Positions 13,523 to 42,713 of a stretch of DNA of 64,000 bases are shown piece after piece. The notes beneath the pieces are model-generated. The model was not told the origin of the DNA. It worked only from the letters and a program-made list of their open reading frames with translations, and ran no database searches. The DNA lies in the NCBI GenBank assembly GCA_902521325.1, contig CABYRE010000006.1:1-64000 (forward strand), read 5' to 3'. Source of the stretch: an uncultured Alphaproteobacteria bacterium. GTDB lineage: Bacteria; Pseudomonadota; Alphaproteobacteria; HIMB59; GCA-002718135. A program made the translations under genes and the position numbers. The first letter of the stretch is position 1; every line of letters begins with the position of its first letter.

Positions 13523-14134
13523 TTATTTTCTATTTAAATTAAATTTAGATGCAACAGTTGTATACTCACTATATCCCATTCTGGCAATATAACGCATTGA
13601 TACACTATCCACTCTATTATTTTTAATAAATTTGTCTTTTATAAAAATACCAATTACTTCGCCGATAATCATTGTTGAAGTTTTTTTTGAATTTGATTTA
13701 AGCTTGATTGTTTTTACTAACTTGCATTCTAAATTTACAGGACTATCCTTAACAGAGGGTACTTTAACAAGTTTTGACTTTTTCTTTTTTAATTTAGATA
13801 AAATAAACTCATCTTCATCTGGTTTAAAATTTCTGGAACTATTATTCATTTGAATTCGTGTTGCTGATGTAGCAAAATTTACTACAAACTCTTTTGTAGA
13901 CAAAATATTTGATAAAGAATCTTTATATTTACTATGAGCGGTGCCTCCATTTGAACAAAACATAATTTGTGGTGGATCATCAGCCACAGAATTAAAATAT
14001 GAATAAGGAGCTATATTGGATACCCCATTTTTGCTTATTGAAGATATCCATCCAATAGGTCTTGGAAAAACTAATGATTTGAAAGGATCTATTTCGAAAG
14101 GTATCCCTTTTTTGGGCTCATAAAACATATTCAA
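13523..14134 (-). CDS. Flavin reductase-like (FMN-binding split barrel) family protein
   Basis: FPRPIGWISSISKNGVSNIAPYSYFNSVADDPPQIMF motif. Confidence 0.88.
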   Translation of the reverse strand: MNMFYEPKKGIPFEIDPFKSLVFPRPIGWISSISKNGVSNIAPYSYFNSVADDPPQIMFCSNGGTAHSKYKDSLSNILSTKEFVVNFATSATRIQMNNSSRNFKPDEDEFILSKLKKKKSKLVKVPSVKDSPVNLECKLVKTIKLKSNSKKTSTMIIGEVIGIFIKDKFIKNNRVDSVSMRYIARMGYSEYTTVASKFNLNRK

Positions 14135-14137
14135 TTT

Positions 14138-14551
14138 TCATGAATAAGAATTTGCATACTCTTTTATTTTTTCTAACATTGAATAAACTCCGTTTCTTCT
14201 TCCAGGAGTTAATAGAGTATCAAGTTCTAAAATATTTAACATATTAAAATCTGAACCCTTAATTTCAGAGGGTTTTCTATCACCATAAATATCACAGAGA
14301 ATAGTTACCATGCCTTTTGATATAAATGCATCAGAGTCGTAATAAAAGGAAAGTTTATCCTCATTTAATTTTGGAACTAACCAAACTTGTGCCTGACATC
14401 CTGAAACTTTAAAAGTCTCATTTCTATATTCTTCTGGAAAGATTTTAGCTTTTTTTGCTTGATCAATTAAAAATTTATACTTATCCATTCCATCATCGAA
14501 TAAATCTAGACTTTCTTTATAATAATTAATTTTTTCTTCTATTGTTTTCAT
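14138..14551 (-). CDS. sufE: SufE family cysteine desulfuration protein
   Basis: YRNETFKVSGCQAQVWLVP active-site Cys region. Confidence 0.9.
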   Translation of the reverse strand: MKTIEEKINYYKESLDLFDDGMDKYKFLIDQAKKAKIFPEEYRNETFKVSGCQAQVWLVPKLNEDKLSFYYDSDAFISKGMVTILCDIYGDRKPSEIKGSDFNMLNILELDTLLTPGRRNGVYSMLEKIKEYANSYS

Positions 14552-15597
14552 GACATAAATTTTCTTAACACATTAGCAGAATCTTCGGGCAATACATCCA
14601 TAATAAAAACACCTGCCATCGATTCTGAGCCTGCTAAAATTTTTGGTTTATCTCCATGTCGTAAGGGTGGATAAAATTCGACATGAAAATGAAAATTATT
14701 GTCATTTAATTCAGGAGATGCATGCAGTCCCATTATATAAGGACATTTTTTATTTAGAAAGGTATCGTATCCTTTTACAACTTTCTGAATACATTTTGAA
14801 AAATCTTCAATCTGATTATCACTAAATTTCCAAGGACCCTCAATCTTATTTTTGGGAATTATCCATACTTCATAAGCATATCTTGCAAAAGGCGGTATAG
14901 CGGCAACAAAATTTTCATTTTGATAAACATAATATTTTTCCTCTAGCTGCTTCATAATATTAATTAAAAAGTTTTCTTTTTTAAATGCTCTTATTTCTTT
15001 TTCAATTACAGGAGGAATAAAAGGATAAGCATAAATTTGACCATGAGGATGATGAAGAGTAACACCGCATTCCTCCCCTCTATTTTCAAAAGGTAGTACA
15101 TATTTAACATGTGTATTTTTTTGTAATTCCTTATACCTATCTATCCAAACCTTAGTTAATAATTCTATTCTGCTTAAAGGCATTTCTGAGATTGTATCTA
15201 AATGTTCAGGAGAGTATACTACTACTTCACACTCTCCTATTGAGGGTTTACTCAAAATATTTTCTAAATGAATATTTTCTCCCATTGAGTTAAAACTTGC
15301 CCATCGATTTGGAAAGACTGCAACTTCAAAGTTTTTAAAAGGTATTTCTGTCGGATAATTTAGATTTCCACCAGGACATAATGGGCAATACTCTTTAGGT
15401 GGAAAAAATGTTCTCTCTTTTCTTCCAGCTGAGTATGTTACCCATTCTTCTCTTGAAGGATTCCACCTCATATGTGGTTTAGGAATATCGTTTACATCAA
15501 GTTCTTGAGAAGGAGTTTCAGTGTGTTCTTGATAACCATAAAGAAGAAGTTCTTTGTTATCATTTCTAGTAAAGGTTCTTTTATGTATTTGATGCAT
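14548..15597 (-). CDS. galT: Galactose-1-phosphate uridylyltransferase
   Basis: ENRGEECGVTLHHPHGQIYAYPFIPP (HPHGQ catalytic motif), CPLCPG zinc site. Confidence 0.93.
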   Translation of the reverse strand: MHQIHKRTFTRNDNKELLLYGYQEHTETPSQELDVNDIPKPHMRWNPSREEWVTYSAGRKERTFFPPKEYCPLCPGGNLNYPTEIPFKNFEVAVFPNRWASFNSMGENIHLENILSKPSIGECEVVVYSPEHLDTISEMPLSRIELLTKVWIDRYKELQKNTHVKYVLPFENRGEECGVTLHHPHGQIYAYPFIPPVIEKEIRAFKKENFLINIMKQLEEKYYVYQNENFVAAIPPFARYAYEVWIIPKNKIEGPWKFSDNQIEDFSKCIQKVVKGYDTFLNKKCPYIMGLHASPELNDNNFHFHVEFYPPLRHGDKPKILAGSESMAGVFIMDVLPEDSANVLRKFMS

Positions 15598-16564
15598 TAA
15601 TTTTTTCTTCCCATTTTATCGATGAATTAATTATTTCTCTAAGATCATTATACTTTGGTTGCCATTTAAAATAATTTAATAATTTAGAAGTATCTGCAAT
15701 TAATTTTTCAACATCTCCTTCTCTCCTATTAGAAAATTTATAAGTAATTTTATTTTGACAGATGCTGTTTGCAGTTTTTACAACATCTAAGACGCTAAAT
15801 CCATTTCCATAACCACAATTAAATAAATTTGATTCTAAATTTTTTAAAAGATATTTTGATACTTCTAAGTGAATATCAGCAAGATCTGATACATGGATGT
15901 AATCCCTAATGGCAGTCCCATCTGGAGTATTATAATTATTGCCAAATATTTCAATTAGATCTCTTTTTCCTACTACAACTTCTGATATTTTTTTTATTAA
16001 ATGAGTTGATTTTTTTGAAATTTGTCCTGATCTTAGTTTTTTATCAGCTCCAGCAACATTAAAGTATCTTAAAATAATATACTGAAATTTATCTTTATTA
16101 TCAAACAAAAATTTTTCTGTTTTAATTTTAGATTCCGCATATGGATTTTGTGGATTTAAATTAGTATGCTCATCAATTAACTTATCTTCACATACTAACC
16201 CATAAGCCGCTGCAGTAGATGAAAAAACTATTTTAGTTAAACCATTTTTTTTGCAAATATTAAAAAGTTTTATTGAATTATTAGTATTGTTTTCAAAATA
16301 TTTCTCTGGCTGATTAACTGATTCTTCAACTTGTATAAATCCTGCAAAATGCATAAGTAAATCGAAATTATTAGATTGTATAAGATTAGAAATTACTTCT
16401 TCATTATTAATATTACAATTAGTAAATTTTGCACTCTTTGGAATTAATATTTCATTTCCAGTCGACAAATTATCAATAATATGAACTTTATGACCGTCAT
16501 CAAGAAGTGACAAAGCTGCATGGCTTCCAATATAACCTGCTCCACCTGTAAGAAGAATATTCAT
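15581..16564 (-). CDS. galE: UDP-glucose 4-epimerase
   Basis: TGGAGYIGSH, SSTAAAYG, NPYAESK, LRYFNVAGA, IRDYIHVSDLA. Confidence 0.93.
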   Translation of the reverse strand: MNILLTGGAGYIGSHAALSLLDDGHKVHIIDNLSTGNEILIPKSAKFTNCNINNEEVISNLIQSNNFDLLMHFAGFIQVEESVNQPEKYFENNTNNSIKLFNICKKNGLTKIVFSSTAAAYGLVCEDKLIDEHTNLNPQNPYAESKIKTEKFLFDNKDKFQYIILRYFNVAGADKKLRSGQISKKSTHLIKKISEVVVGKRDLIEIFGNNYNTPDGTAIRDYIHVSDLADIHLEVSKYLLKNLESNLFNCGYGNGFSVLDVVKTANSICQNKITYKFSNRREGDVEKLIADTSKLLNYFKWQPKYNDLREIINSSIKWEEKINASNT

Positions 16565-29146: not shown

Positions 29147-30276
29147 TTAACTTAAAGGGGATGACCTGGGATCATTCTAGAGGTTTTGACCCAATGGTTG
29201 CTACATCTAAAAAATTTCAGGAAATTCATAATAATAAAGTTTCAATTGAATGGGATAAAAGACCGTTACAAGCATTTGCAGATAGACCTATAGAAGACAT
29301 GACTAATGATTATGATTTAATAGTAATAGACTATCCTCATGTTGGTGAAGTGGCTCACAAAGGACTTTTACAAAACTTAAACCTCAATGAATATCAATCT
29401 CAATTAAACGATTTAAAAAAGCAATCAGTTGGAAAATCGCATGAGAGTTATTTTATAGATAATAAACAATGGGCTCTTGCCATAGATGCTGCCTCACAGA
29501 CCGCCTGTTACAGAGAAGATTTAGTTAGAGTACTTCCATCCAAATGGGATGATCTTCTTTCATTAGCAAAAGAGAGAAAAGTTCTTTGGCCTTTAAAACC
29601 AGTTCATGCAATAAGTAGTTTTTATAGTATTTATAACAACATTACTGAAGAATTAATCCCAGAAGAAAAAAATTTTATTAATAAAGATGCTGGAGTTAAA
29701 ACCCTTACAATGATGAAAGCTGTATCTAAAGAAATAATCAATGATTGTTTAAGTATGGATCCAATTCAAACTGCTGAACTCATGACAGAGACTAATGATT
29801 TTTATTATTGCCCATACATTTATGGATTTTCAAATTACTCGAGAAATAATTATAGAAAAAATATTTTGAAATATATTGATGTTTTAGATTTGTTAGGCAA
29901 AGGTCCATCAGGAACACATTTAGGTGGTACTGGCATAGCAGTATCAAATGTTAGTAAGAATAAAGATCTAGCAATTGAATATGCATTTTGGATAGCAGGG
30001 GCTGAATGTCAAAAGTCACTTTTTTACCAAAGTGGTGGACAGCCAGGAAATTCTGAAGCTTGGGAGGATGAAAAGATAAATCTAGAAACAAACGATTTTT
30101 TTAAAGCAACTCGTAAAACTCTTGATTTGGCATGGGTAAGACCAAGGCATAACGGTTATATGGAATTTCAGGACAGAAGTGGTGATATCATTAATGAATA
30201 TCTACAAACAGAAATTTCAGCTGAAAGTATTTGTGAAAAATTATCTGATATGTACAATAAGAGTTTCAAAGAATAA
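29143..30276 (+). CDS. Solute-binding-protein-fold protein lacking a signal peptide
   Basis: Resembles SBP family 1 ([23 protein letters not shown]) but starts [15 protein letters not shown] with no hydrophobic leader; ATGA overlap fixes the start. Confidence 0.75.
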
Positions 30277-30284
30277 ATTATTGT

Positions 30285-31433
30285 ATGACTAAACCATTAG
30301 AAGGATTAACAGTATTAGAATTTAGCCAGTTTTTATCAGGGCCATATGCAGGCTTAAGACTTGCTGATTTAGGAGCAAGAGTAATTAAAATTGAAAGACC
30401 AGAAGTTGGGGATCTTTGTAGAAACTTATATATCAGCGACACTGATCTCGAAGGTGATAGCACTTTATTTCATGCAATTAATAGAAATAAGGAGAGCTTT
30501 GCAGCAAATTTAAAAGATGCCAAAGACATAGAGTTAGTAAAAAAATTAATTGAGAAGGCAGATATAATTACACAAAATTTTAGACCAGGAGTAATAGAAC
30601 GTATTGGTTTAGATTATAAAAATGTAAAAAAAATAAATCCAAAAATAGTTTATGGAACTATTTCTGGTTACGGATCTGATGGGCCTTGGAGTTCATTACC
30701 TGGACAAGATTTATTAGCACAATCTAGAACAGGTTTAGTTTGGTTAAATGGTAATGGAGGTGAAGCACCAACCCCAATGGGTTTGGCAGTTGCTGACATG
30801 TTGGCAGGACATACACTTGTTGAAGGTATACTAGCAGCGGTTATCAAAAGATTTCGAACAGATAATGGATCTCATGTAGAAACAAGTTTAGTTGAGGCCT
30901 TATTAGATTTTCAATTTGAAGTTCTGACGACATATTTTAACGATGGAAACAGAAAGCCGGAAAGAAGTTCGTATAATAATGCCCACGCATATCTGTCAGC
31001 TCCGTATGGAATTTATAAAACATCCAATGGATATATAGCAATTGCAATGACACCACTGCCTCAACTTGGTGCATTACTTGATTTAAATTCAATTAAAGAT
31101 TTACATGATCAAAAAGAATGGTTCACAAAAAGAGATGAAATTAAAAAAGATATTGGCGACTGGATTGAACATCAAACAACAGAACACTGGTTGAGTATTC
31201 TTGAGCCAGCAGATATATGGTGTGCTAAAGTACTCGATTGGGAAACAATGGTTAAACACGAAGGATTCAAGATCCTCGATATGGTTCAGAGAATTAAAAG
31301 AGATGATGGACTTGATATTGAAACACTTCGTTGCCCAATAAAAATTGATGGAGAGATTTTTAAATCAAGTAAGGCAGCTCCAAAAATTGGGAATGACAAT
31401 AATAGTATTATGAAAGAATTTGGTATCTCATGA
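30285..31433 (+). CDS. CaiB/BaiF (class III) CoA-transferase
   Basis: LEGLTVLEFSQFLSGPYAGLRLADLGARVIKIERPEVGD, NRNKESFAANLK, MGLAVADMLAGH. Confidence 0.94.
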   Translation: MTKPLEGLTVLEFSQFLSGPYAGLRLADLGARVIKIERPEVGDLCRNLYISDTDLEGDSTLFHAINRNKESFAANLKDAKDIELVKKLIEKADIITQNFRPGVIERIGLDYKNVKKINPKIVYGTISGYGSDGPWSSLPGQDLLAQSRTGLVWLNGNGGEAPTPMGLAVADMLAGHTLVEGILAAVIKRFRTDNGSHVETSLVEALLDFQFEVLTTYFNDGNRKPERSSYNNAHAYLSAPYGIYKTSNGYIAIAMTPLPQLGALLDLNSIKDLHDQKEWFTKRDEIKKDIGDWIEHQTTEHWLSILEPADIWCAKVLDWETMVKHEGFKILDMVQRIKRDDGLDIETLRCPIKIDGEIFKSSKAAPKIGNDNNSIMKEFGIS

Positions 31434-32536
31434 AAATTAAAGATATAGAAATTCGTATGTGTCGACACAAAGAGCCTGTCATGAAAGATTCAGAAATGAG
31501 AGATGGGAAAAAATCAGATTTAGAATTCTTAGTTATCACATTTCACACTGATGAAGGTCTTTCTAGCTCAACTTTTGGGTTTGCAGGGAGGGGCGCAGAA
31601 ATGGCTGGTGAAATCGCAAATTCAATTTTTAAACCTTTTTTTATTGGCAGAGACCCACTTTATCGTGAACAACATTGGCATGAATACAGAACCGCAGACA
31701 GATGGTGGAACCACGCACCTATATATAGTTACGGACCATTTGATATTAATTGTTGGCTTCTCTCATCTATGCAAGCAGGCCAACCTCTCTATAAGTATTT
31801 AGGCGCTTATAGAGACAAGGTTCAAATTTATGGAAGTTCTCTAGTTTTAAATTCACCTGAGGCTTACGCAAAAGAAGCCTTGGAATATAAAAAGAGAGGT
31901 TTCAATGCTTATAAACTTCATCCTCCTGGAAAATATGATTTTGATTTGGAAGCTCATAAAAAAACACGTGAAGCAGTTGGTGATGAATTTAAGCTTATGA
32001 GTGATCCGGTTGCCCCTTATACTTTTGAACAAGCTCTACGTTTTGGAAGAGAGTTAGAAAAATTAAATTATTATTGGTACGAAGAGCCTTTGTTTGATGA
32101 AAATTTTCATAATCTAAGGGAATTAACTAGAATATTAGATATTCCTATTATTGGAACAGAGGTTATAGCAAAACATCCTTACAGTGTTGCTGAATGTATC
32201 TCTACAAGGGTTGTTGATATGGTAAGAGCTGATGTTTCATGGAGTGGAGGCATTACGGCTACAATGAAAACAGCACACTTAGCAGAAAGTTTTGGCGTTC
32301 AGTGTGAAATTCATACAGCTATTTATCATCCTTTAGAACTTGTTAACTTACATTGTTGTGCAGCTATAAAAAATTCTGAATTTTTTGAAGTCCTTGTGCC
32401 TTATGAATATTTTAATTTTGGTTTAAAAGATTCTATCAAAGTCGAAAATGGTTACGCCCATTTACCTTCTAAGCCCGGTCTTGGCATTGATTTAGATTGG
32501 GATTTTATAGATAATACAACTTTCAAAAAAATTTAA
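31430..32536 (+). CDS. Enolase superfamily, mandelate racemase/muconate lactonizing enzyme-like
   Basis: KLH motif (YKLHPPG), SDPVAPY, WYEEPL, IGTEVI, RADVSWSGG, EIHTAIYHP. Confidence 0.88.
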   Translation: MKIKDIEIRMCRHKEPVMKDSEMRDGKKSDLEFLVITFHTDEGLSSSTFGFAGRGAEMAGEIANSIFKPFFIGRDPLYREQHWHEYRTADRWWNHAPIYSYGPFDINCWLLSSMQAGQPLYKYLGAYRDKVQIYGSSLVLNSPEAYAKEALEYKKRGFNAYKLHPPGKYDFDLEAHKKTREAVGDEFKLMSDPVAPYTFEQALRFGRELEKLNYYWYEEPLFDENFHNLRELTRILDIPIIGTEVIAKHPYSVAECISTRVVDMVRADVSWSGGITATMKTAHLAESFGVQCEIHTAIYHPLELVNLHCCAAIKNSEFFEVLVPYEYFNFGLKDSIKVENGYAHLPSKPGLGIDLDWDFIDNTTFKKI

Positions 32537-32538
32537 AA

Positions 32539-33840
32539 ATGACAAAGATTACTAAATTTAGTGTTCAAGATGTAAGATTTCCTACTTCAAAAGATTTAAC
32601 TGGATCTGATGCCATTCATACAGATCCTGATTATTCAGCAACGTATGTGACCGCTTTTACTGATCAATCAGAGTTAAAAGGATATGGTATTGCTTTCACG
32701 ATTGGTAAAGGAAATGACATTGTTGCTGAATGTATAAAACATTTTTTTCCAATTTTTGAAAATATGGACTTAAATGATTTAGAAAATAACATTGGTAAGC
32801 TCTGGTTCAAGTGTGTTGATCATAGTCAGTTACGATGGTTAGGTCCTGAAAAAGGAGTTGTTCATATGGCTGTATCAGCAATCTTTAATTGTTTATGGGA
32901 TTTAATTGCTAAGAAGCACAAAAAACCTTTGTGGCAGTTCGTTGTAGAAAGTGAGCCTGAAAAAATAGTTAGTTGGTTAACATTTAAATATATTGAAGAT
33001 GTTTTAACTCCAGAGGAAGCGTTAGCGATTTTGTCAAACAATCAAAATGATAAACAAAAACGTATCGATACAGTATTTCAAGAAGGATATCCATCTTACA
33101 CAACTGCTGCAGGATGGCTTGGCTATTCAGATGAAAAAATAATTCAATTATGCAAAGAATATATGGTGAAAGGTTGGAAGCATTTTAAAATCAAGGTTGG
33201 TTTAGATCTAGATGCAGATGTAAAAAGACTTGAGTTAATTAGAAAAACAATTGGTGATGATTGCTCTATTATGGTTGATGCAAACCAACAATGGAACGTA
33301 GAACAATCGATTAAACATATTAATGCATATAAAAAATTTAATTTATTTTTTGTAGAAGAGCCTACAAGTCCAGATGATGTAATGGGTTTTGCCAAAATAA
33401 AAAAAGAAGTTGGAGATGTAAGACTTGCTACTGGAGAAGCATGTGGTGGTCGCATAATGTTTAAGCAATTTCTTGAAACTGGTGCAATGAACATTTGTCA
33501 AATTGATAGCTGCAGATTGGGAAGTATTAACGAAATAATTACAGTATTGTTAATGGCACATAAATTTAATGTTCCAGTATTTCCACATGCTGGTGGTGTT
33601 GGTTTATGTGAATATGTTCAACACCTATGCATGATCGACTATGTTTTAATCAATGGTTCTAAAAATGATAAAGTTGTAGAATATCAAGACAGCTTACATG
33701 AACACTTTGTATATCCATGTAAGATTGAAAATGGAAATTATATGCCCCCACTTGACCATGGATATTCTATTGAAATGAAAGAAAAGTCTGTTAATGAGTT
33801 TTCTTTTCCTAACGGCGAGTATTGGAAGAATAATATATGA
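32539..33840 (+). CDS. fucD: L-fuconate dehydratase (enolase superfamily)
   Basis: VRFPTSKDLTGSDAIHTDPDYSATYV, FKIKVGLD, MVDANQQW, FVEEPTSPDD, PHAGGVGLCEYVQHL. Confidence 0.9.
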   Translation: MTKITKFSVQDVRFPTSKDLTGSDAIHTDPDYSATYVTAFTDQSELKGYGIAFTIGKGNDIVAECIKHFFPIFENMDLNDLENNIGKLWFKCVDHSQLRWLGPEKGVVHMAVSAIFNCLWDLIAKKHKKPLWQFVVESEPEKIVSWLTFKYIEDVLTPEEALAILSNNQNDKQKRIDTVFQEGYPSYTTAAGWLGYSDEKIIQLCKEYMVKGWKHFKIKVGLDLDADVKRLELIRKTIGDDCSIMVDANQQWNVEQSIKHINAYKKFNLFFVEEPTSPDDVMGFAKIKKEVGDVRLATGEACGGRIMFKQFLETGAMNICQIDSCRLGSINEIITVLLMAHKFNVPVFPHAGGVGLCEYVQHLCMIDYVLINGSKNDKVVEYQDSLHEHFVYPCKIENGNYMPPLDHGYSIEMKEKSVNEFSFPNGEYWKNNI

Positions 33841-34574
33841 GATTAAAAGATAAAAAAATAATTGTAACTGCTGCAGCACAAGGCATTGGTAGGGCAACTG
33901 CAATGATGTTTGCAAAAGAAGGGGCTTCTGTTATTGCAACTGATATTAATGAAGAAAAACTGACTGAATTAAATAAAGAAAATAATTCTATCAAAACTCA
34001 AAAATTAGATGCTACAAATAAAAATGCAGTTGAAGATTTTTGTGCTAGCATTGAAACTGTTGATATTCTCTTTCATGCTGTTGGTTTTGTTCATCATGGA
34101 ACATTATTGGAATGTGATGATACAGAATTTCAACGATCTGTTAATGTAAATGTATATTCAGCCTATCTCATGAGTTATAATCTATTACCTAAAATGTTAG
34201 ATAAAGGAAAGGGAAATATAATTATTGTATCTTCTGCTGCTTCAAATGTAAAAGGAGCTCCTAATAGATTTATTTACGGAACAACAAAAGCAGCACTAAA
34301 TGGTTTTGTAAAAGCTCTTGCAGCAGATTATGTCAAAAATGGAATTCGATGTAATGCTATACTTCCTGGAACAGTAGAAACACCATCTTGGGAAGGTAGA
34401 GTGAATATGGCTGATGATCCAAAACAAGCTCGGAAGGATTTTATTGCTAGACAAGCTATGGGAAGATTAGCTCAACCAGAAGAAATTGCTTCACTTGCAA
34501 TTTATTTAGCAAGTGATGAATCAGATTTTGTAACAGGAACACTAAATTTAATTGATGGAGGGTGGGCTTTATAA
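33837..34574 (+). CDS. SDR oxidoreductase, probable 2-keto-3-deoxy-L-fuconate dehydrogenase
   Basis: TAAAQGIGRA, IVSSAASN, YGTTKAA, C-terminal NLIDGGWAL; directly after fucD. Confidence 0.85.
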   Translation: MRLKDKKIIVTAAAQGIGRATAMMFAKEGASVIATDINEEKLTELNKENNSIKTQKLDATNKNAVEDFCASIETVDILFHAVGFVHHGTLLECDDTEFQRSVNVNVYSAYLMSYNLLPKMLDKGKGNIIIVSSAASNVKGAPNRFIYGTTKAALNGFVKALAADYVKNGIRCNAILPGTVETPSWEGRVNMADDPKQARKDFIARQAMGRLAQPEEIASLAIYLASDESDFVTGTLNLIDGGWAL

Positions 34575-35422
34575 TGAAAACTTTAAGATATAGAATTGGT
34601 GAAGGTGTTAAACCAGGAATTTTGGACTCAGAGGAGAACATACGCGATGCTTCTTCCTTGGTAAATGATTGGGATAATAAGAATGTTACTACTGAAAAGC
34701 TGCATGAAGTAAAACTAGTTGATTTAAGTTCATTACCTATTGTTGAAAATCATGACGGTATAGCACCATGTGTTTGTAAAGAAAGTATTGGTAAAATTAT
34801 TTGTATAGGTCTTAATTATTCTGATCATGCAGAAGAAACAGGGCAAAAAGTACCTCCGGAGCCTATTATTTTTGCAAAAGCAACAAGTTCAGTAATTGGA
34901 CCAAATGATGATGTGGAGATTCCTAAAAAATCAGTAAAATCTGACTGGGAAGTTGAATTAGGTGTTATCATTGGAAAAGAAGCGAAGTATATTTCTGAAA
35001 GTGAATCACAATCCCATATTGCTGGGTACTGTGTTATTAATGATTTAAGTGAGAGAGAATTTCAGATTGAACATTCAGGTCAATGGATGAAAGGTAAATC
35101 ATGTGATACTTTTGGACCAATAGGACCTTATTTAGTTACAACAGATGAAATCCCTGATCCTCAAAATCTTAAAATGTGGTTAGAGGTTAATGGTAAAAAA
35201 ATGCAAAATGGGTCAACAAATACGATGGTCTACGGTGTTAACTTTCTCATTAGTTATTTAAGTCAATTTATGTCATTACAGCCAGGAGATATTATCTCTA
35301 CTGGAACTCCTCCAGGTGTAGGTATGGGAATGAAACCCCAAGTATTTCTAAAAGCTGGTGATGTTATGAAATTAGGCATTGACGGCTTAGGAGAACAAAC
35401 ACAAAAAACGATTCAAGTTTAA
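34574..35422 (+). CDS. Fumarylacetoacetate hydrolase family, probable 2,4-diketo-3-deoxy-L-fuconate/rhamnonate hydrolase
   Basis: ICIGLNYSDHAEE, PIIFAKATSSVIGP, DWEVELGVIIGK, GDIISTGTPPGVGMG. Confidence 0.87.
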   Translation: MKTLRYRIGEGVKPGILDSEENIRDASSLVNDWDNKNVTTEKLHEVKLVDLSSLPIVENHDGIAPCVCKESIGKIICIGLNYSDHAEETGQKVPPEPIIFAKATSSVIGPNDDVEIPKKSVKSDWEVELGVIIGKEAKYISESESQSHIAGYCVINDLSEREFQIEHSGQWMKGKSCDTFGPIGPYLVTTDEIPDPQNLKMWLEVNGKKMQNGSTNTMVYGVNFLISYLSQFMSLQPGDIISTGTPPGVGMGMKPQVFLKAGDVMKLGIDGLGEQTQKTIQV

Positions 35423-36576
35423 TGTTTGGAAGCATCAATAATTGTCATAATGTTAAAGACTTTAGAAGTTTAGCAAAGAAAAGACTTCCAAGCCCAATCT
35501 TTCATTATATTGATGGTGCTGCTGATGATGAAATAACTTATAAAAGAAATACTGATGCATATGAAGAATGTGATTTAATTCCAAATGTCTTAAGTGGTGT
35601 TGATAAAGTAGATATGTCAACTACAGTGATGGGACAAAAATTGGATATGCCATTATATTGTGCCCCAACTGCTCTTCAAAGATTATTTCACCATGAGGGT
35701 GAAATTGGAGTCGCAAAAGCTGCTGAAAAATTTGGAACTATGTTTGGAATTTCTTCTTTAGGTACAGCAAGCATAGAGGAGATATCAAGTTTAGTCAAAA
35801 CACCAAAACTTTTTCAACTGTACGTTCATAAAGACAAAGGCTTAAACAAAGCTCTTATACAAAGGTGTAAAGAATCTAATTTTGAAGCAATGGCAGTAAC
35901 TGTTGATACCGCTGTTGGTGGAAATCGTGAAAGAGATTTGTATACAGGTTTTACTATTCCAATGAAATTAAAATTAAATAGTGTGCTTAGTTTTATGCTG
36001 CATCCTAAGTGGGCAATAGATTATTTTACAAAACCTAAATGGGAATTGAGTAATTTAAAAGAGCACATAAGTGAAGGTACAACTGTAATGACTACAATTG
36101 GTGATTACTTCACGAAGATGCTTGATAATTCGATGAGCTGGAAAGATGTTGAAAATATTAACAAAGAATGGGGGCGTCAATTTGCAATCAAAGGCGTTAT
36201 GTCAGTAGATGATGCCAAAAAAGCTATCGATGTTGGTGCTTCTACAATAATGGTTTCAAATCATGGAGGACGACAATTAGATGGGTCAAGATCACCTTTT
36301 GATCAATTAGCTGAAATTGTTGATGCTGTTGGAGACAAAATAGATGTAATTTGTGAAGGCGGTATCAGAAGAGGAACACATGTTTTAAAAGCATTATCTT
36401 TGGGTGCAAAAGCTTGCTCTGGTGGGAGAATGTATCTCTATGCTTTAGCTGCTGGAGGTCAAAAAGGGGTTGAAAAAAGTTTATCTAATTTACGTAATGA
36501 AATTGAACGAGATATGAAATTAATGGGAGTTTCTAACGTAAAAGAGTTAACAAGAAAAAATCTTAAATTCAGATAA
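35422..36576 (+). CDS. lldD: FMN-dependent alpha-hydroxy-acid dehydrogenase (L-lactate dehydrogenase type)
   Basis: FHYIDGAADDEIT, SNHGGRQLDG, CEGGIRRGTHVLKALSLGA. Confidence 0.9.
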   Translation: MFGSINNCHNVKDFRSLAKKRLPSPIFHYIDGAADDEITYKRNTDAYEECDLIPNVLSGVDKVDMSTTVMGQKLDMPLYCAPTALQRLFHHEGEIGVAKAAEKFGTMFGISSLGTASIEEISSLVKTPKLFQLYVHKDKGLNKALIQRCKESNFEAMAVTVDTAVGGNRERDLYTGFTIPMKLKLNSVLSFMLHPKWAIDYFTKPKWELSNLKEHISEGTTVMTTIGDYFTKMLDNSMSWKDVENINKEWGRQFAIKGVMSVDDAKKAIDVGASTIMVSNHGGRQLDGSRSPFDQLAEIVDAVGDKIDVICEGGIRRGTHVLKALSLGAKACSGGRMYLYALAAGGQKGVEKSLSNLRNEIERDMKLMGVSNVKELTRKNLKFR

Positions 36577-36637
36577 ATTCACAATATTTTAAAAAAAAAT
36601 ATTTATTCTCATCTAATTTTATTCTAAAAATTTTATT

Positions 36638-36958
36638 ATGAATGATGAAATAGAGCCAATCTTAATAGGCGAAGTTGATGATATTGATATTGGTTCAGTA
36701 GAAAATTTTGAATATGAAGATATAAATTATGCAATTTATAGACTCGAATCAGGCTTTTTTGCAACTGAAGGAAATTGCCCTTGTGCTGAAAAAACTTTAT
36801 TAAGTGAATCTAGTATTGAAGGTGAAGAACTAGAGTGCCCATCATGCGGTAATAAATTTAGCATTGTATCTGGAGACTCTGTCTCTGATTTAGAACAAAT
36901 TCCATTAAAAATATTTGATGTTACAGAAGAAGATGGAAATCTTTACCTAAATATTTAA
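36638..36958 (+). CDS. Rieske-like ferredoxin with CxC/CxxC ligand set
   Basis: NCPCAEKTLLSE...LECPSCGNKFSI; Rieske-ferredoxin-like layout with both His ligands replaced by Cys. Confidence 0.72.
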   Translation: MNDEIEPILIGEVDDIDIGSVENFEYEDINYAIYRLESGFFATEGNCPCAEKTLLSESSIEGEELECPSCGNKFSIVSGDSVSDLEQIPLKIFDVTEEDGNLYLNI

Positions 36959-36966
36959 CTTATAAT

Positions 36967-37926
36967 TTATTTACTTAAGTCTATAATGTTATTTGGATTT
37001 AATTTTTCTTTATCTTTTAAAAAATGATAAACATTTTCACAGCACTCAATAGCCATTCTTTTACGACACTCTAGGGTAAGAGCAGCGTTATGAGGTGATA
37101 ATATAATATTATCTAATTTAAATAAATCTAAGTCTGAAGGAGGAGGTTCAACTTCGTACACATCTAATCCAGCTCCAAATATACTTTTACTTGAAAGTGC
37201 TTTATAGAGTGCATCTTCATTAATTATTCCCCCTCTAGCTGTATTTACTAAAATAAGATTTTTTTTAAAAATTTTAAATTCATCATACGAAATCAAATTC
37301 TTTGTCTCTTTGTTAAGAGGCATATGTATACTTATGTAATCAGCATTTCTAAATCCTTCTTCTTTGTTAACGGAAGAGCAACCATAATTTACAATATCAG
37401 ATTTTGAAACAAAAGGATCATAAACACTTATTTTTGCTTCAAATCCTAAACATCTTTTAGCGAGAGCTTTACCAATTCTACCAAAACCTAGAATAAATAT
37501 ATTTTTTTTATATAGTTCAAAAAAATTCGGTAATTGTGATTTAAGTTTATAATTTCCACTTTTAACTATTTTGTTAGACTCAAAAATATTTTTTGATAGC
37601 ACGAGAAACATTGTAATTACGTGTTCAGCAACACTTGCAGCATTTGATGTGCTTGTAATTGATAGTGCAATATTATTGCTTTGTAGATATTTTTGATCAA
37701 CATTATCATAACCAACACCATGCCTAGATACAATTTTTAATTTTGGACATGAAGATAAAATTTCACTATCAAGATTTGACGTTCTTAAAATTATTGCATC
37801 AACGTCTGAGAGGCTATGAATTAAATTATTTTTTGAAAATTCTTTAACTTGAATAATATCAAAGTTTTCATTATGTAAAATTTTTAAACCATCCTCGTGT
37901 ACTTCTCCAACAATACCTATTTTCAT
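36967..37926 (-). CDS. D-isomer-specific 2-hydroxyacid dehydrogenase
   Basis: ILGFGRIGKALA, LVNTARGGIINEDAL, SPHNAAL. Confidence 0.9.
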   Translation of the reverse strand: MKIGIVGEVHEDGLKILHNENFDIIQVKEFSKNNLIHSLSDVDAIILRTSNLDSEILSSCPKLKIVSRHGVGYDNVDQKYLQSNNIALSITSTSNAASVAEHVITMFLVLSKNIFESNKIVKSGNYKLKSQLPNFFELYKKNIFILGFGRIGKALAKRCLGFEAKISVYDPFVSKSDIVNYGCSSVNKEEGFRNADYISIHMPLNKETKNLISYDEFKIFKKNLILVNTARGGIINEDALYKALSSKSIFGAGLDVYEVEPPPSDLDLFKLDNIILSPHNAALTLECRKRMAIECCENVYHFLKDKEKLNPNNIIDLSK

Positions 37927-38030
37927 TATGAAAGCTATAAAGTAATATTTGTTAAAAACAAATGTTAGCTATTTAAAAAATATGTTTCTTATATTAATAT
38001 ATTACCTTTTAAGTTTGTTTGGGGGAAAGA

Positions 38031-39875
38031 ATGAAAACAATTAAAATGTCATGTTCTCATGCTTTGATTAAATATTTAACTGCACAAAAAATTTTAATTA
38101 ATGGTAAAAAACTACCATTATTTCCTGGTGCTTTTGGCATTTATGGACACGGAAATGTAGCTTGTATAGGCCAGGCAATGGAAGAATTTCAAGATGAGTT
38201 ACCTGGTTATAGAGGCCATCATGAACAAAATATGGCATTAACTGGTATTGCTTATGCAAGAGCAATGCGAAGAAAGCAAATTTTTATTGCAACTTCCTCA
38301 GTAGGACCTGGCTCTACAAATATGGTTACTGCTGCTGCTGTAGCTTTAAGCAATAGATTGCCTATTCTTTTACTTCCAGGAGATACATTTTCTAGTCGCT
38401 TTCCAGATCCAGTTCTACAACAAGTTGAACATTTTAACTCTCCATCAGAGACTCAAAATGATTCATTTAAATCTGTATCAAGATATTTTGATCGAATAAC
38501 TAGACCTGAACAAATTTTAACATCTTTACCTCAAGCAATTAATGTGATGCTAGATCCTGCGGATTGTGGTCCTGCAGTAATTTCAATGTCACAAGATGTT
38601 CAAGGAGAGGCTTATGATTATCCCGAAATCTTTTTTGAGGAAAAAATTCATGAAATAAGAAGAATTCACCCAGATCCAAATCAAATACAAAAAGCAGCTG
38701 ATAAATTAAAAAAATCAAAACAACCAATTATTATTTCTGGAGGAGGTGTTTTATATTCAGAAGCAGAAGAGGAAATTTCTGCTTTTGCAAAGAAACATAA
38801 TATTCCCGTAACTGCAACTGTAATGGGTATTGGATGTATGAATAAAGATGATCCCTATTATATAAGTGCAATTGGATGTTTAGGAGAAGGCTCATCTAAT
38901 AACCTTGCTACTGATACAGATTTAGCACTAGCTGTAGGAACAAAATTAGGAGACTTTACAACTGGCTCTTGGACAAATTTTGAAAATGAAAATTTTCAAC
39001 TTTTATCAATAAATACTTCACGATTTGACACTACAAAACATCGCGCAACTCCTGTTGTAAGTGATGCAAAAATTGGACTTCAAGAATTATCAAAAGCATT
39101 AGGAGATTGGAAAGCTCCAGATAATTGGTACCAACGTTCTATTGAGGAAAGAAATAAATGGGATGAATATGTTGCTAAAGAGAGTGGGCCAACAAATCAA
39201 GAACTTCCTTCTTATGCTCATGCAGTAGGTGCAGTTTATAGAAATTCAGATCCATCAGATATTGTTGTAACTGCAGCAGGAGGACTAGTAGGCGAAGTGG
39301 TTCAAATATGGAAACCTAAAGAACTAAATACCTTTGAAACTGAATGGGGATTTAGTTGCATGAGTTATGAAATATCAGGGGCACTTGGAATTAAAATGGC
39401 AAAACCTAATCAAGATGTAATTGTATTTGTAGGAGATGGTTCATACCTCTTACAAAACAGCGATATCTACAGTTCTGTTTTGTATGATAAAAAATTAATA
39501 ATAGTTGTTTGTGACAATGGCGGTCATATGGTGATTAATAGATTACAACTAGCAAAAGGCGGAAATGAATATCTTTGTAATCTCAATGCTGCTAGGGCTA
39601 CAAATTTACAGTTCGTAGATTTTGAAGCTCACGCAAAAAGTATGGGAGCAAATGGTGAAACTGTTAAATCTATTGCAGAATTAGAGGCAGCTTTTAAGAG
39701 AGCGAAAGAATCAGACAAAACCTATGTGATTTCAATGAAAACAGATGGGTATGAATGGTTGGAGGGCACAGCATTTTGGGAAAGCCCAACTCTTCAAGTT
39801 GATAATACGGAGGGTAAGAAATCAGCTCTTAATGAATTTTTAGAAGGTAAAAATAAACAACGTAAAGGCGTATAA
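38031..39875 (+). CDS. iolD: ThDP-dependent IolD-like 3D-(3,5/4)-trihydroxycyclohexane-1,2-dione acylhydrolase
   Basis: YGHGNVACIGQAMEE, GHHEQNMALTGIAYAR, VFVGDGSYLLQNSDIYSSVLYDKKLIIVVCDNGG; start set to ATG 38031. Confidence 0.85.
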   Translation: MKTIKMSCSHALIKYLTAQKILINGKKLPLFPGAFGIYGHGNVACIGQAMEEFQDELPGYRGHHEQNMALTGIAYARAMRRKQIFIATSSVGPGSTNMVTAAAVALSNRLPILLLPGDTFSSRFPDPVLQQVEHFNSPSETQNDSFKSVSRYFDRITRPEQILTSLPQAINVMLDPADCGPAVISMSQDVQGEAYDYPEIFFEEKIHEIRRIHPDPNQIQKAADKLKKSKQPIIISGGGVLYSEAEEEISAFAKKHNIPVTATVMGIGCMNKDDPYYISAIGCLGEGSSNNLATDTDLALAVGTKLGDFTTGSWTNFENENFQLLSINTSRFDTTKHRATPVVSDAKIGLQELSKALGDWKAPDNWYQRSIEERNKWDEYVAKESGPTNQELPSYAHAVGAVYRNSDPSDIVVTAAGGLVGEVVQIWKPKELNTFETEWGFSCMSYEISGALGIKMAKPNQDVIVFVGDGSYLLQNSDIYSSVLYDKKLIIVVCDNGGHMVINRLQLAKGGNEYLCNLNAARATNLQFVDFEAHAKSMGANGETVKSIAELEAAFKRAKESDKTYVISMKTDGYEWLEGTAFWESPTLQVDNTEGKKSALNEFLEGKNKQRKGV

Positions 39876-39909
39876 AAATAAATTTCTTTTTCTAAAATTT
39901 AAAAATTGT

Positions 39910-40938
39910 ATGAGTCAAAACAAGCCTATAATTTTATTAGATCCATATCCTAGAACTATGGATCTACTTTTTTCTAAAGAAAATTTAAACTATTTAAAAA
40001 AAAATTTTAAACTCATTACTGCTCCAAATAAAAATAAAAAATATTTTTATGAAAAAAATTTACCAAATGCAGATTATATTTTTGGGCAACCCAATTTACC
40101 TTCATTTTTAATTTCTAAAACCACAAAACTTAAAGCAATATTTAATGTGGAGAGCAATTTTATGGATAATATGGATTACGATTATTGTTTTAGAAAAGGA
40201 ATACATGTTTTAGCAACATCTCCTGTTTTTTCTCAACCCGTTGCTGAAATGGCAATGGGACTTACTTTATCAATAGCAAGAAGTATTCATATTGCCCACT
40301 CAGACTTTATTTTAAAAAAAGAAAAGTATGGAGGAGAAATTAGTCAGAATAATTTTTTAATAAAAAATAAAACATTTGGTTTAATTGGTTTTGGTGATTT
40401 AGCAAAATCTCTTACCCCTATACTAAAAGCATTCTCTAATAATATCATCGCCTATGATCCTTGGATTCCTGATAAAGAAATTGAAAAAATGGATGTTAAG
40501 CCTACCAGTTTGAATTTGTTACTCAAAAATGCTGACATTATTTATGTATTAGCTTCCATTACTTCTTCTAATGATTCTATGATTAATTCTTCAAAGTTTA
40601 AATTAATAAAAGATGGATCAGTGTTTGTATTAATGAGTAGAGCAGCCATAATAAATTTTGATGATTTTTTTAATTTTTTAAAAAATAGAAATGTGTTTGC
40701 TGCTATTGATGTTTTTCCTCAAGAACCGTTTCCTAAAAATCATAAATTAAGAAAACTTAAAAATGTAATTTTTTCACCACATAGGGCTGGTGCATTAGAC
40801 AGCGCATTTAAAGAGATGGGTGAATTAGTAATTCAAGATCTAAAACTTATCTCGAAGGGCCTACCTCCTAAATTATGTAAAAAAGCTGAGAGAGAAACTG
40901 TTAAATATTTACGTTCAAAACCAGTTGATATTAATTAA
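39910..40938 (+). CDS. D-isomer-specific 2-hydroxyacid dehydrogenase family protein (divergent)
   Basis: FGLIGFGDLAKSL, AYDPW, VLMSRAAIIN, FPQEPFP, FSPHRAGAL. Confidence 0.82.
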   Translation: MSQNKPIILLDPYPRTMDLLFSKENLNYLKKNFKLITAPNKNKKYFYEKNLPNADYIFGQPNLPSFLISKTTKLKAIFNVESNFMDNMDYDYCFRKGIHVLATSPVFSQPVAEMAMGLTLSIARSIHIAHSDFILKKEKYGGEISQNNFLIKNKTFGLIGFGDLAKSLTPILKAFSNNIIAYDPWIPDKEIEKMDVKPTSLNLLLKNADIIYVLASITSSNDSMINSSKFKLIKDGSVFVLMSRAAIINFDDFFNFLKNRNVFAAIDVFPQEPFPKNHKLRKLKNVIFSPHRAGALDSAFKEMGELVIQDLKLISKGLPPKLCKKAERETVKYLRSKPVDIN

Positions 40939-40959
40939 AATTTATTTAAAAATACAATT

Positions 40960-41706
40960 ATGTCAGATGAATTAGTACTGGAAGCTAAATCAGTCTCAAA
41001 ATTCTTTGGTACTATCACAGCTCTTCAAAATGTAGATCTTCATTTAAATAAAGGAGAAGTCCTTGGTGTTGTTGGTGATAATGGAGCAGGGAAATCCACA
41101 TTAATGAAAGTTTTATCTGGATTATATAAGCCAAGCGAAGGTGCGCTTTTTTTTGATAAGGAAAAAGTAACTTTAAATAGTCCAAGAGACTCTCAAAATT
41201 TAGGCTTAGAAATGGTCTACCAAGATTTAGCCCTAGCTGGCAATCTTCCTATCGGTGATAATATTTTTTTAGGAAGAGAACCAACAAGAAAAGTTGGCCC
41301 TTTCAATTTTTTGGATCATAAAAAAAGAAAACAGTTAACTGAAGAACATCTCGCAAAACTAAAAATAAATGTAAAGAGTGCTGATCAAAAGGTTGAAGAA
41401 TTATCAGGTGGACAAAGACAAGCGGTTGCAATTGCTAGAGCTACAGCCTTTAATGCAAAAATTGTATTAATGGATGAGCCGACAGCTGCACTAGCTGTTA
41501 AGGAAGTTGGAAAAGTTTTGGATCTAATTTTAAATCTAAAAAAATTGGGTGTTAGTGTTATAGTAATTAGCCATCGAATGGATGATATTTTTACTGTTTG
41601 TGATCGAGTGATGGCATTATTCCAAGGAACAAACTTTGCAGAATCAGAATTAAAAAATACTTCTAGAGATGAAGTTATTGGATGGATCATGGGGAAAAAA
41701 GATTAA
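40960..41706 (+). CDS. CUT2-type sugar ABC transporter ATP-binding protein (single NBD)
   Basis: GDNGAGKSTLMK, LSGGQRQAVAIARA, LMDEPTAAL; 248 aa. Confidence 0.93.
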   Translation: MSDELVLEAKSVSKFFGTITALQNVDLHLNKGEVLGVVGDNGAGKSTLMKVLSGLYKPSEGALFFDKEKVTLNSPRDSQNLGLEMVYQDLALAGNLPIGDNIFLGREPTRKVGPFNFLDHKKRKQLTEEHLAKLKINVKSADQKVEELSGGQRQAVAIARATAFNAKIVLMDEPTAALAVKEVGKVLDLILNLKKLGVSVIVISHRMDDIFTVCDRVMALFQGTNFAESELKNTSRDEVIGWIMGKKD

Positions 41707-42713
41707 TGAATAAGAATCAAGAAACTTTATTTGTAAGACTCATTCCTTTTTTTGAAAGATATGGAATCTTATTACTTATCTTAATAATGATTGCCGTTTT
41801 GCATTTATTGCAACCTGATGTTTTTTTGTCATGGAGGAATGTAACAAATATTTTTAAACAAGTTTCTTGGCAGTCTATGTTAGCACTTGGTGTCTTTATG
41901 GTCATTGTAACTGCAGGAATAGATCTATCAGTTGGCTCAATTATCATGCTATCATTAATGGGACTAGCTATTGCTTCTAAAGCAGGAATGCCTTGGTACG
42001 TTGTCATGTTAGTTGCTCCAGCAATTGGATTTTTATGTGGTATGTTTAATGGTATTGGCATTACGTTACTTCGAATGCCTCATCCATTCATCATGACACT
42101 TGGTACTCTTTATATATTTAGAGGAATTGGGAATCTAATTTCAGGTGGTGTACCAATAACAGGCTTTGCTGAACAGATAAGAGTTATTGGAAATGGTAAA
42201 ATCAAACTAGACGCATTCTTTGGAGAAGGGGCAAGAGAGTACATACCCACAAGTTTAATTTTGATGATAGTAATATTTTTTATTTTTTGGATATTTTTAA
42301 ATCATACAAGAATTGGTAAATGGATCTACGCGATTGGAGGTAACCCTGGAGCTGCAAGAGCAGCTGGTATTAATGTAGATCGAATTTTAATCGTAGTTTA
42401 CACCCTTTGCGGTTTTTTGGCAGGCATTGGAGGTTTAATTTTAGCTGGAAGAACGAATTCTGCTTATCCAAATGCTGGTTTACAATCTGAGTTAGATGCA
42501 ATTGCGGCAGTCATTATTGGCGGAGCAAGTTTCTTTGGTGGCAGGGGAACAGTTTTAGGAGTGTTTGCTGGAGTTATGATAATGGGTATACTCCGAAATG
42601 GCCTAAATTTAATGAATGTTAGTGTTTTCTGGCAACAAGTTCTGATTGGTTCCATTATTATTTTGGCCGTTTATATTGATGTTTTAAGAAGACAACTTGC
42701 AACCAGAACATAA
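41706..42713 (+). CDS. CUT2-type sugar ABC transporter permease
   Basis: GIDLSVGSIIMLS, GNPGAARAAGINVDR, IIGGASFFGGRGTVLG. Confidence 0.94.
   Translation: MNKNQETLFVRLIPFFERYGILLLILIMIAVLHLLQPDVFLSWRNVTNIFKQVSWQSMLALGVFMVIVTAGIDLSVGSIIMLSLMGLAIASKAGMPWYVVMLVAPAIGFLCGMFNGIGITLLRMPHPFIMTLGTLYIFRGIGNLISGGVPITGFAEQIRVIGNGKIKLDAFFGEGAREYIPTSLILMIVIFFIFWIFLNHTRIGKWIYAIGGNPGAARAAGINVDRILIVVYTLCGFLAGIGGLILAGRTNSAYPNAGLQSELDAIAAVIIGGASFFGGRGTVLGVFAGVMIMGILRNGLNLMNVSVFWQQVLIGSIIILAVYIDVLRRQLATRT

Follow-up and report, generated by a model that had tools for sequence, protein, structure and literature searches.

A conserved four-cysteine variant of the Rieske ferredoxin fold in one family of Alphaproteobacteria

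Background

As the defining mark of Rieske proteins, two histidine ligands bind the metal cluster together with two cysteines and set its potential. What becomes of such a site when both histidines are replaced by cysteine in nature is the question raised by a small gene found in a 64,000-nucleotide stretch of contig CABYRE010000006.1 from an uncultured alphaproteobacterium (the whole stretch is called the window hereafter). A natural all-cysteine version offers a direct test of whether the Rieske scaffold holds a four-thiolate cluster or reverts to a mononuclear site, a matter which has so far been approached with engineered mutants, and of these the double-cysteine form assembled poorly. In the open-access literature searched we found no report of a natural all-cysteine Rieske protein.

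Results and discussion

The gene and its fold

The gene is read from the forward strand at 36638..36958, stop included, with the ATG at 36638 and the stop codon at 36956-36958, and it encodes a protein of 106 residues. Its cysteine codons begin at 36776 (C47), 36782 (C49), 36836 (C67) and 36845 (C70), which gives the spacing CxC-X17-CxxC at the places where Rieske proteins have CxH and CxxH. Metal loop 1, C47-P-C49 (36776..36784, forward strand), has C49 in place of the first histidine ligand of the canonical C-x-H; the following AEKTL stretch from C49 to an LSE motif (36785..36799, forward strand) is one residue longer than in comparable canonical Rieske ferredoxins; and metal loop 2, C67-P-S-C70-G71 (36836..36850, forward strand; canonical C-P-x-H), reads as a CxxCG like that of rubredoxins and zinc knuckles. 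No histidine occurs in the whole 106-residue protein, which is strongly acidic (pI 4.05; 26 Asp/Glu and 4 Lys/Arg).

The initial annotation had described a Rieske-like ferredoxin with both histidine ligands changed to cysteine. Its coordinates, frame, motif and clear cysteine codons are all exact, and the scaffold that it proposed is borne out by the Pfam profile PF00355 (24.5 bits against a cutoff of 20.3; E 2.5e-5), by the predicted fold and by 60/60 orthologues. Among solved structures the best match is CarAc (E 1.3e-9), a Rieske ferredoxin whose C-T-H and C-P-F-H align with C-P-C and C-P-S-C of the four-cysteine protein. Structure prediction, which had been named as a check, returned a Rieske fold and not an unrelated one: the AlphaFold model, built from 18 orthologues, has a mean pLDDT of 89.7 and matches Rieske ferredoxins in Foldseek at TM 0.84-0.89.

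Seen against known families, the protein has fold, length, strand order, the first cysteine of each loop and the surroundings of both loops in common with CarAc/BphF/MocE-type Rieske ferredoxins (PF00355; TIGR02377), but differs from them by the two His-to-Cys replacements, the additional residue after loop 1, the total lack of histidine, and a gene adjoined by neither an oxygenase nor a reductase gene. The ligand set CxH...CxxH (two histidines and two cysteines) is replaced by CxC...CxxC in the window and in 60/60 orthologues, and the score for the MocE family ferredoxin (TIGR02377, 35.6 bits) lies below its cutoff of 136.15. The top NCBIfam match is NirD, the small subunit of assimilatory nitrite reductase (TIGR02378, 40.6 bits, below the cutoff of 74.65), which likewise has a Rieske fold without canonical ligands; here, however, four cysteines are kept and the operon is not one of nitrite reductase. 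With rubredoxin and LysW-like zinc-ribbon Cys4 sites the protein shares four thiolates and the CPxCG knuckle of loop 2, but of the rubredoxin set CxxC...CxxCG only the second knuckle is present, the first being CxC, and the whole chain has the Rieske fold. The zinc-ribbon matches are weak and stay far under their cutoffs (LysW 15.1 against 27 bits in Pfam, E 0.018, and 26.6 against 75 in NCBIfam, E 4.6e-6; Trm112p, E 0.035). In fold the protein belongs with the MocE/CarAc-type Rieske ferredoxins, both histidine ligands having become cysteine in one lineage.

Conservation and origin

A scan of the genome collection gave 60 orthologues with 66-99% identity, and all four cysteines are kept in every one of them, while residue 48 between the first two varies among P, N, T, Y, H, S and L. 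Each cysteine codon uses both TGT and TGC by synonymous change, and the median dN/dS is about 0.07; together with the invariance of the cysteines this indicates a site under strong purifying selection. The initial annotation had held that histidines in the same columns of homologues would point to a sequencing error, yet the aligned orthologues have cysteine throughout and histidine is found in paralogues only. An error of sequencing or assembly is contradicted by the same four cysteines in orthologues from many separate assemblies and by their synonymous codon changes, and a pseudogene or decaying canonical Rieske gene is ruled out by the dN/dS and the conservation; no support was found for either, and we give them practically no chance. 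At the sequence level, the all-cysteine variant is confirmed as real and conserved in nature.

Regarding its distribution, four-cysteine proteins were seen in only one family of the order to which the window belongs, where other genera hold additional members with the same pattern. Besides the four-cysteine gene, related genomes often have a canonical one in another gene neighbourhood, whose product (CTHE...ECPMHQG) is about 30% identical; the window's own assembly (57% complete) yielded none. This canonical paralogue often adjoins an apparent ferredoxin reductase in the relatives (L063-L074). In an unrooted tree of 88 proteins the four-cysteine set is a single group (support 100/100) among canonical Rieske ferredoxins, set on a long stem of 2.17 changes per column; a separate group holds the canonical paralogues. 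Canonical CxH/CxxH proteins were all that profile searches met in the loci read from 385 class-level and 399 phylum-level genomes, and codon-pattern scans, run on 299 and on 279 genomes, turned up no further Rieske-like four-cysteine frame; both kinds of search cover samples short of the whole known diversity. No relative was found in phages or viral contigs, and a plasmid search returned a single weak match (31%). Since the distribution is so narrow and the tree is unrooted, we infer from the former that the four-cysteine state is derived.

Operon context and upstream element

Upstream of the four-cysteine gene and on the same strand lie, in one operon, genes for an SDR-family dehydrogenase (33837..34574), an FAH-family hydrolase (34562..35422), whose best NCBIfam model, 2,4-didehydro-3-deoxy-L-rhamnonate hydrolase, scores below cutoff, and an LldD-type, FMN-dependent enzyme (35422..36576), the usual upstream neighbour, whose best match, L-lactate dehydrogenase, is also below cutoff. 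The naming of FAH and LldD would fit a pathway that splits a deoxysugar acid into pyruvate and lactate, and by its gene content the operon that ends in the four-cysteine gene looks like one for such a cleavage. In AEGEAN-169, the group to which the window probably belongs, some members are known to have a fucose operon (PMC11366302), and the literature on this group that was searched, including that work, mentions neither a Rieske protein nor a ferredoxin. The genes upstream of the SDR gene show two arrangements among the relatives (L004 and similar): dehydratase/CoA-transferase genes as in the window, or homologues of window positions 13526-16564.

The initial annotation had suggested that the protein may serve LldD or a PhyH/di-iron oxygenase of the region. 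The PhyH gene lies about 11 kb away and nothing supports a link with it. For LldD the adjacency stands: the four-cysteine gene is directly 3' of the LldD-type gene in 59/60 loci, and a close LldD orthologue is also present in 84/86 genomes with the four-cysteine protein, the exceptions being G008, where the contig stops 19 bases past the start codon, and G103 (L039/L078), where the order is SDR-FAH-ferredoxin and LldD is absent. What does not stand is LldD as an obligate partner, which is weakened by G103 and by the reverse cases: G109 (L160) has LldD without SDR, FAH and the ferredoxin, G118 has FAH-LldD without the ferredoxin, and other members of the sister family likewise have LldD but no ferredoxin. 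Where LldD loci from other orders were read, none had an adjoining Rieske gene, and the sole motif match (L144) resembles a zinc-type cysteine motif in a Nudix-like frame.

The roughly 60-base gap ahead of the four-cysteine gene contains a conserved AT-rich element, TTTATTCT-N9-TTATTYTA (36602..36626, forward strand), which is kept with small changes in nearly all loci read, also in those without LldD. It occurs as a single exact copy in the window and in its own assembly, and near-matches are no commoner than in a reversed control, so that no regulon was seen there; it is most simply read as a putative separate promoter of the four-cysteine gene. No Shine-Dalgarno sequence is visible upstream of the gene, sigma-70 and terminator scans around it gave nothing useful, and no Rfam family was found in 30000-42000. 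Downstream, the convergent D-2-hydroxyacid dehydrogenase gene (36967-37926, reverse strand) is unusually variable, the window copy being about 55-66% identical to those of close relatives, and a TPP enzyme (38019-39875) scores 766.7 bits against the cutoff of 715 for IolD of myo-inositol metabolism, though it stands beside deoxysugar-acid genes.

The metal site

Canonical relatives mostly have CxH-X16-CxxH, against CxC-X17-CxxC in the four-cysteine family. With the conserved L-[SE]-[ED] stretch as reference, the additional residue falls between that stretch and C49, and consequently C49 corresponds to the first histidine if one counts from the N-terminal side and to the position following it if one counts from the C-terminal side. 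Cysteine has likewise been put for histidine on the scaffold of the archaeal Rieske ferredoxin ARF from Sulfolobus solfataricus: H64C formed a [2Fe-2S] cluster of low potential with 3Cys-1His ligation, cluster assembly failed in H44C and was largely impaired in H44C/H64C, and H44I/K45C/H64C, with a ligand shift of one residue, formed a mononuclear rubredoxin-like Fe(Cys)4 site (PMC2946596, a review). The present protein is natural and conserved and has the CxC of the double mutant, but its loop 1 is longer, the natural feature closest to the shift in the triple mutant.

Because the longer loop most resembles that shift (PMC2946596), we rank first, with a probability of roughly 45%, a mononuclear Zn or Fe site on the Rieske fold with a role in the deoxysugar-acid pathway. 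Four thiolates would bind one metal ion, either Zn or Fe as in rubredoxin, as the CxxCG of loop 2 and the extra residue in loop 1 suggest, and this residue could place C49 where a mononuclear site needs its ligand. With iron the protein would be an acidic one-electron carrier, most simply fed by the neighbouring FMN 2-hydroxyacid dehydrogenase; with zinc it would take no part in redox chemistry and would assist the same pathway as an accessory protein. The weak zinc-ribbon matches and the adjacency to the LldD-type gene are further points in favour of this reading. Against it stand the scores of those matches far under their cutoffs, the genomes in which LldD and the ferredoxin occur apart, the lack of an adjacent reductase gene, and the CxC (not CxxC) of loop 1, which in spacing matches both Rieske itself and the ARF double mutant and so leaves room for a [2Fe-2S] core.

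It is quite conceivable, if somewhat short of even odds, that the protein is instead an ordinary one-electron ferredoxin with a low-potential [2Fe-2S] cluster on four cysteine ligands. Bfd and NifU hold a [2Fe-2S] cluster by just such a CxC...CxxC set, the ligand positions counted N-terminally fit the Rieske pattern, and the protein's relatives carry electrons as [2Fe-2S] ferredoxins. However, a low potential is to be expected of an all-cysteine cluster, and this makes it an awkward acceptor from lactate oxidation, and the operon has no ferredoxin reductase gene. The engineered proteins bear on both sides, since H64C still formed its cluster while H44C and the double mutant did so poorly or not at all (PMC2946596). 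On balance the mononuclear site may be narrowly favoured over the all-cysteine cluster.

The site might also be free of metal in the cell, as free thiols or disulphides in a structural or regulatory subunit like the cluster-less NirD, whose structures 2jo6 and 3c0d are among the fold matches and whose model, although below cutoff, heads the NCBIfam list; the extra cysteines 42 and 81 in one of two allele types would agree with this. We consider it improbable, for four invariant cysteines at the ligand positions amid varying neighbours better fit metal ligation, and a reducing cytosol is the likely surrounding of a protein without signal sequence.

Two allele types

The four-cysteine gene exists in two types about 68% identical, A (that of the window) and B, the latter with the motif CNC...CVGCGNTY and usually the two additional cysteines. 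When L010 is compared with L056, DNA identity is 93-99% in the flanks and 66-73% in the four-cysteine gene; the drop is limited to the region from about base 20 to about base 340, counted from the start codon. LldD is at least 95% identical in 1268 pairs, and in 618 of them the four-cysteine protein is less than 75% identical, oftener than any neighbour; the LldD tree, with its 59 loci, requires at least 16 changes between A and B, near the shuffled mean of 17.5. From these comparisons, recombination between two long-separated alleles, exchanged as a single gene among near-identical loci, is well supported, and for such a small soluble protein in marine bacteria exchange at gene size is unusual.

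More doubtful is a wider scenario, in which a natural Rieske lineage went from [2Fe-2S](His)2(Cys)2 to mononuclear Cys4 through a loop insertion of one residue, comparable to the ligand move of the engineers, and in which the two old alleles, whose differences lie partly close to the metal loops and include the extra cysteines, are kept and swapped as single genes, perhaps for differences in metal, potential or partner. Of the 21 fixed differences between A and B, 10 fall in the 30-residue neighbourhood of the metal loops (p = 0.055, for a region picked post hoc). Loci with single-gene allele exchange are L010, L056, L060, L009, L046 and L054.
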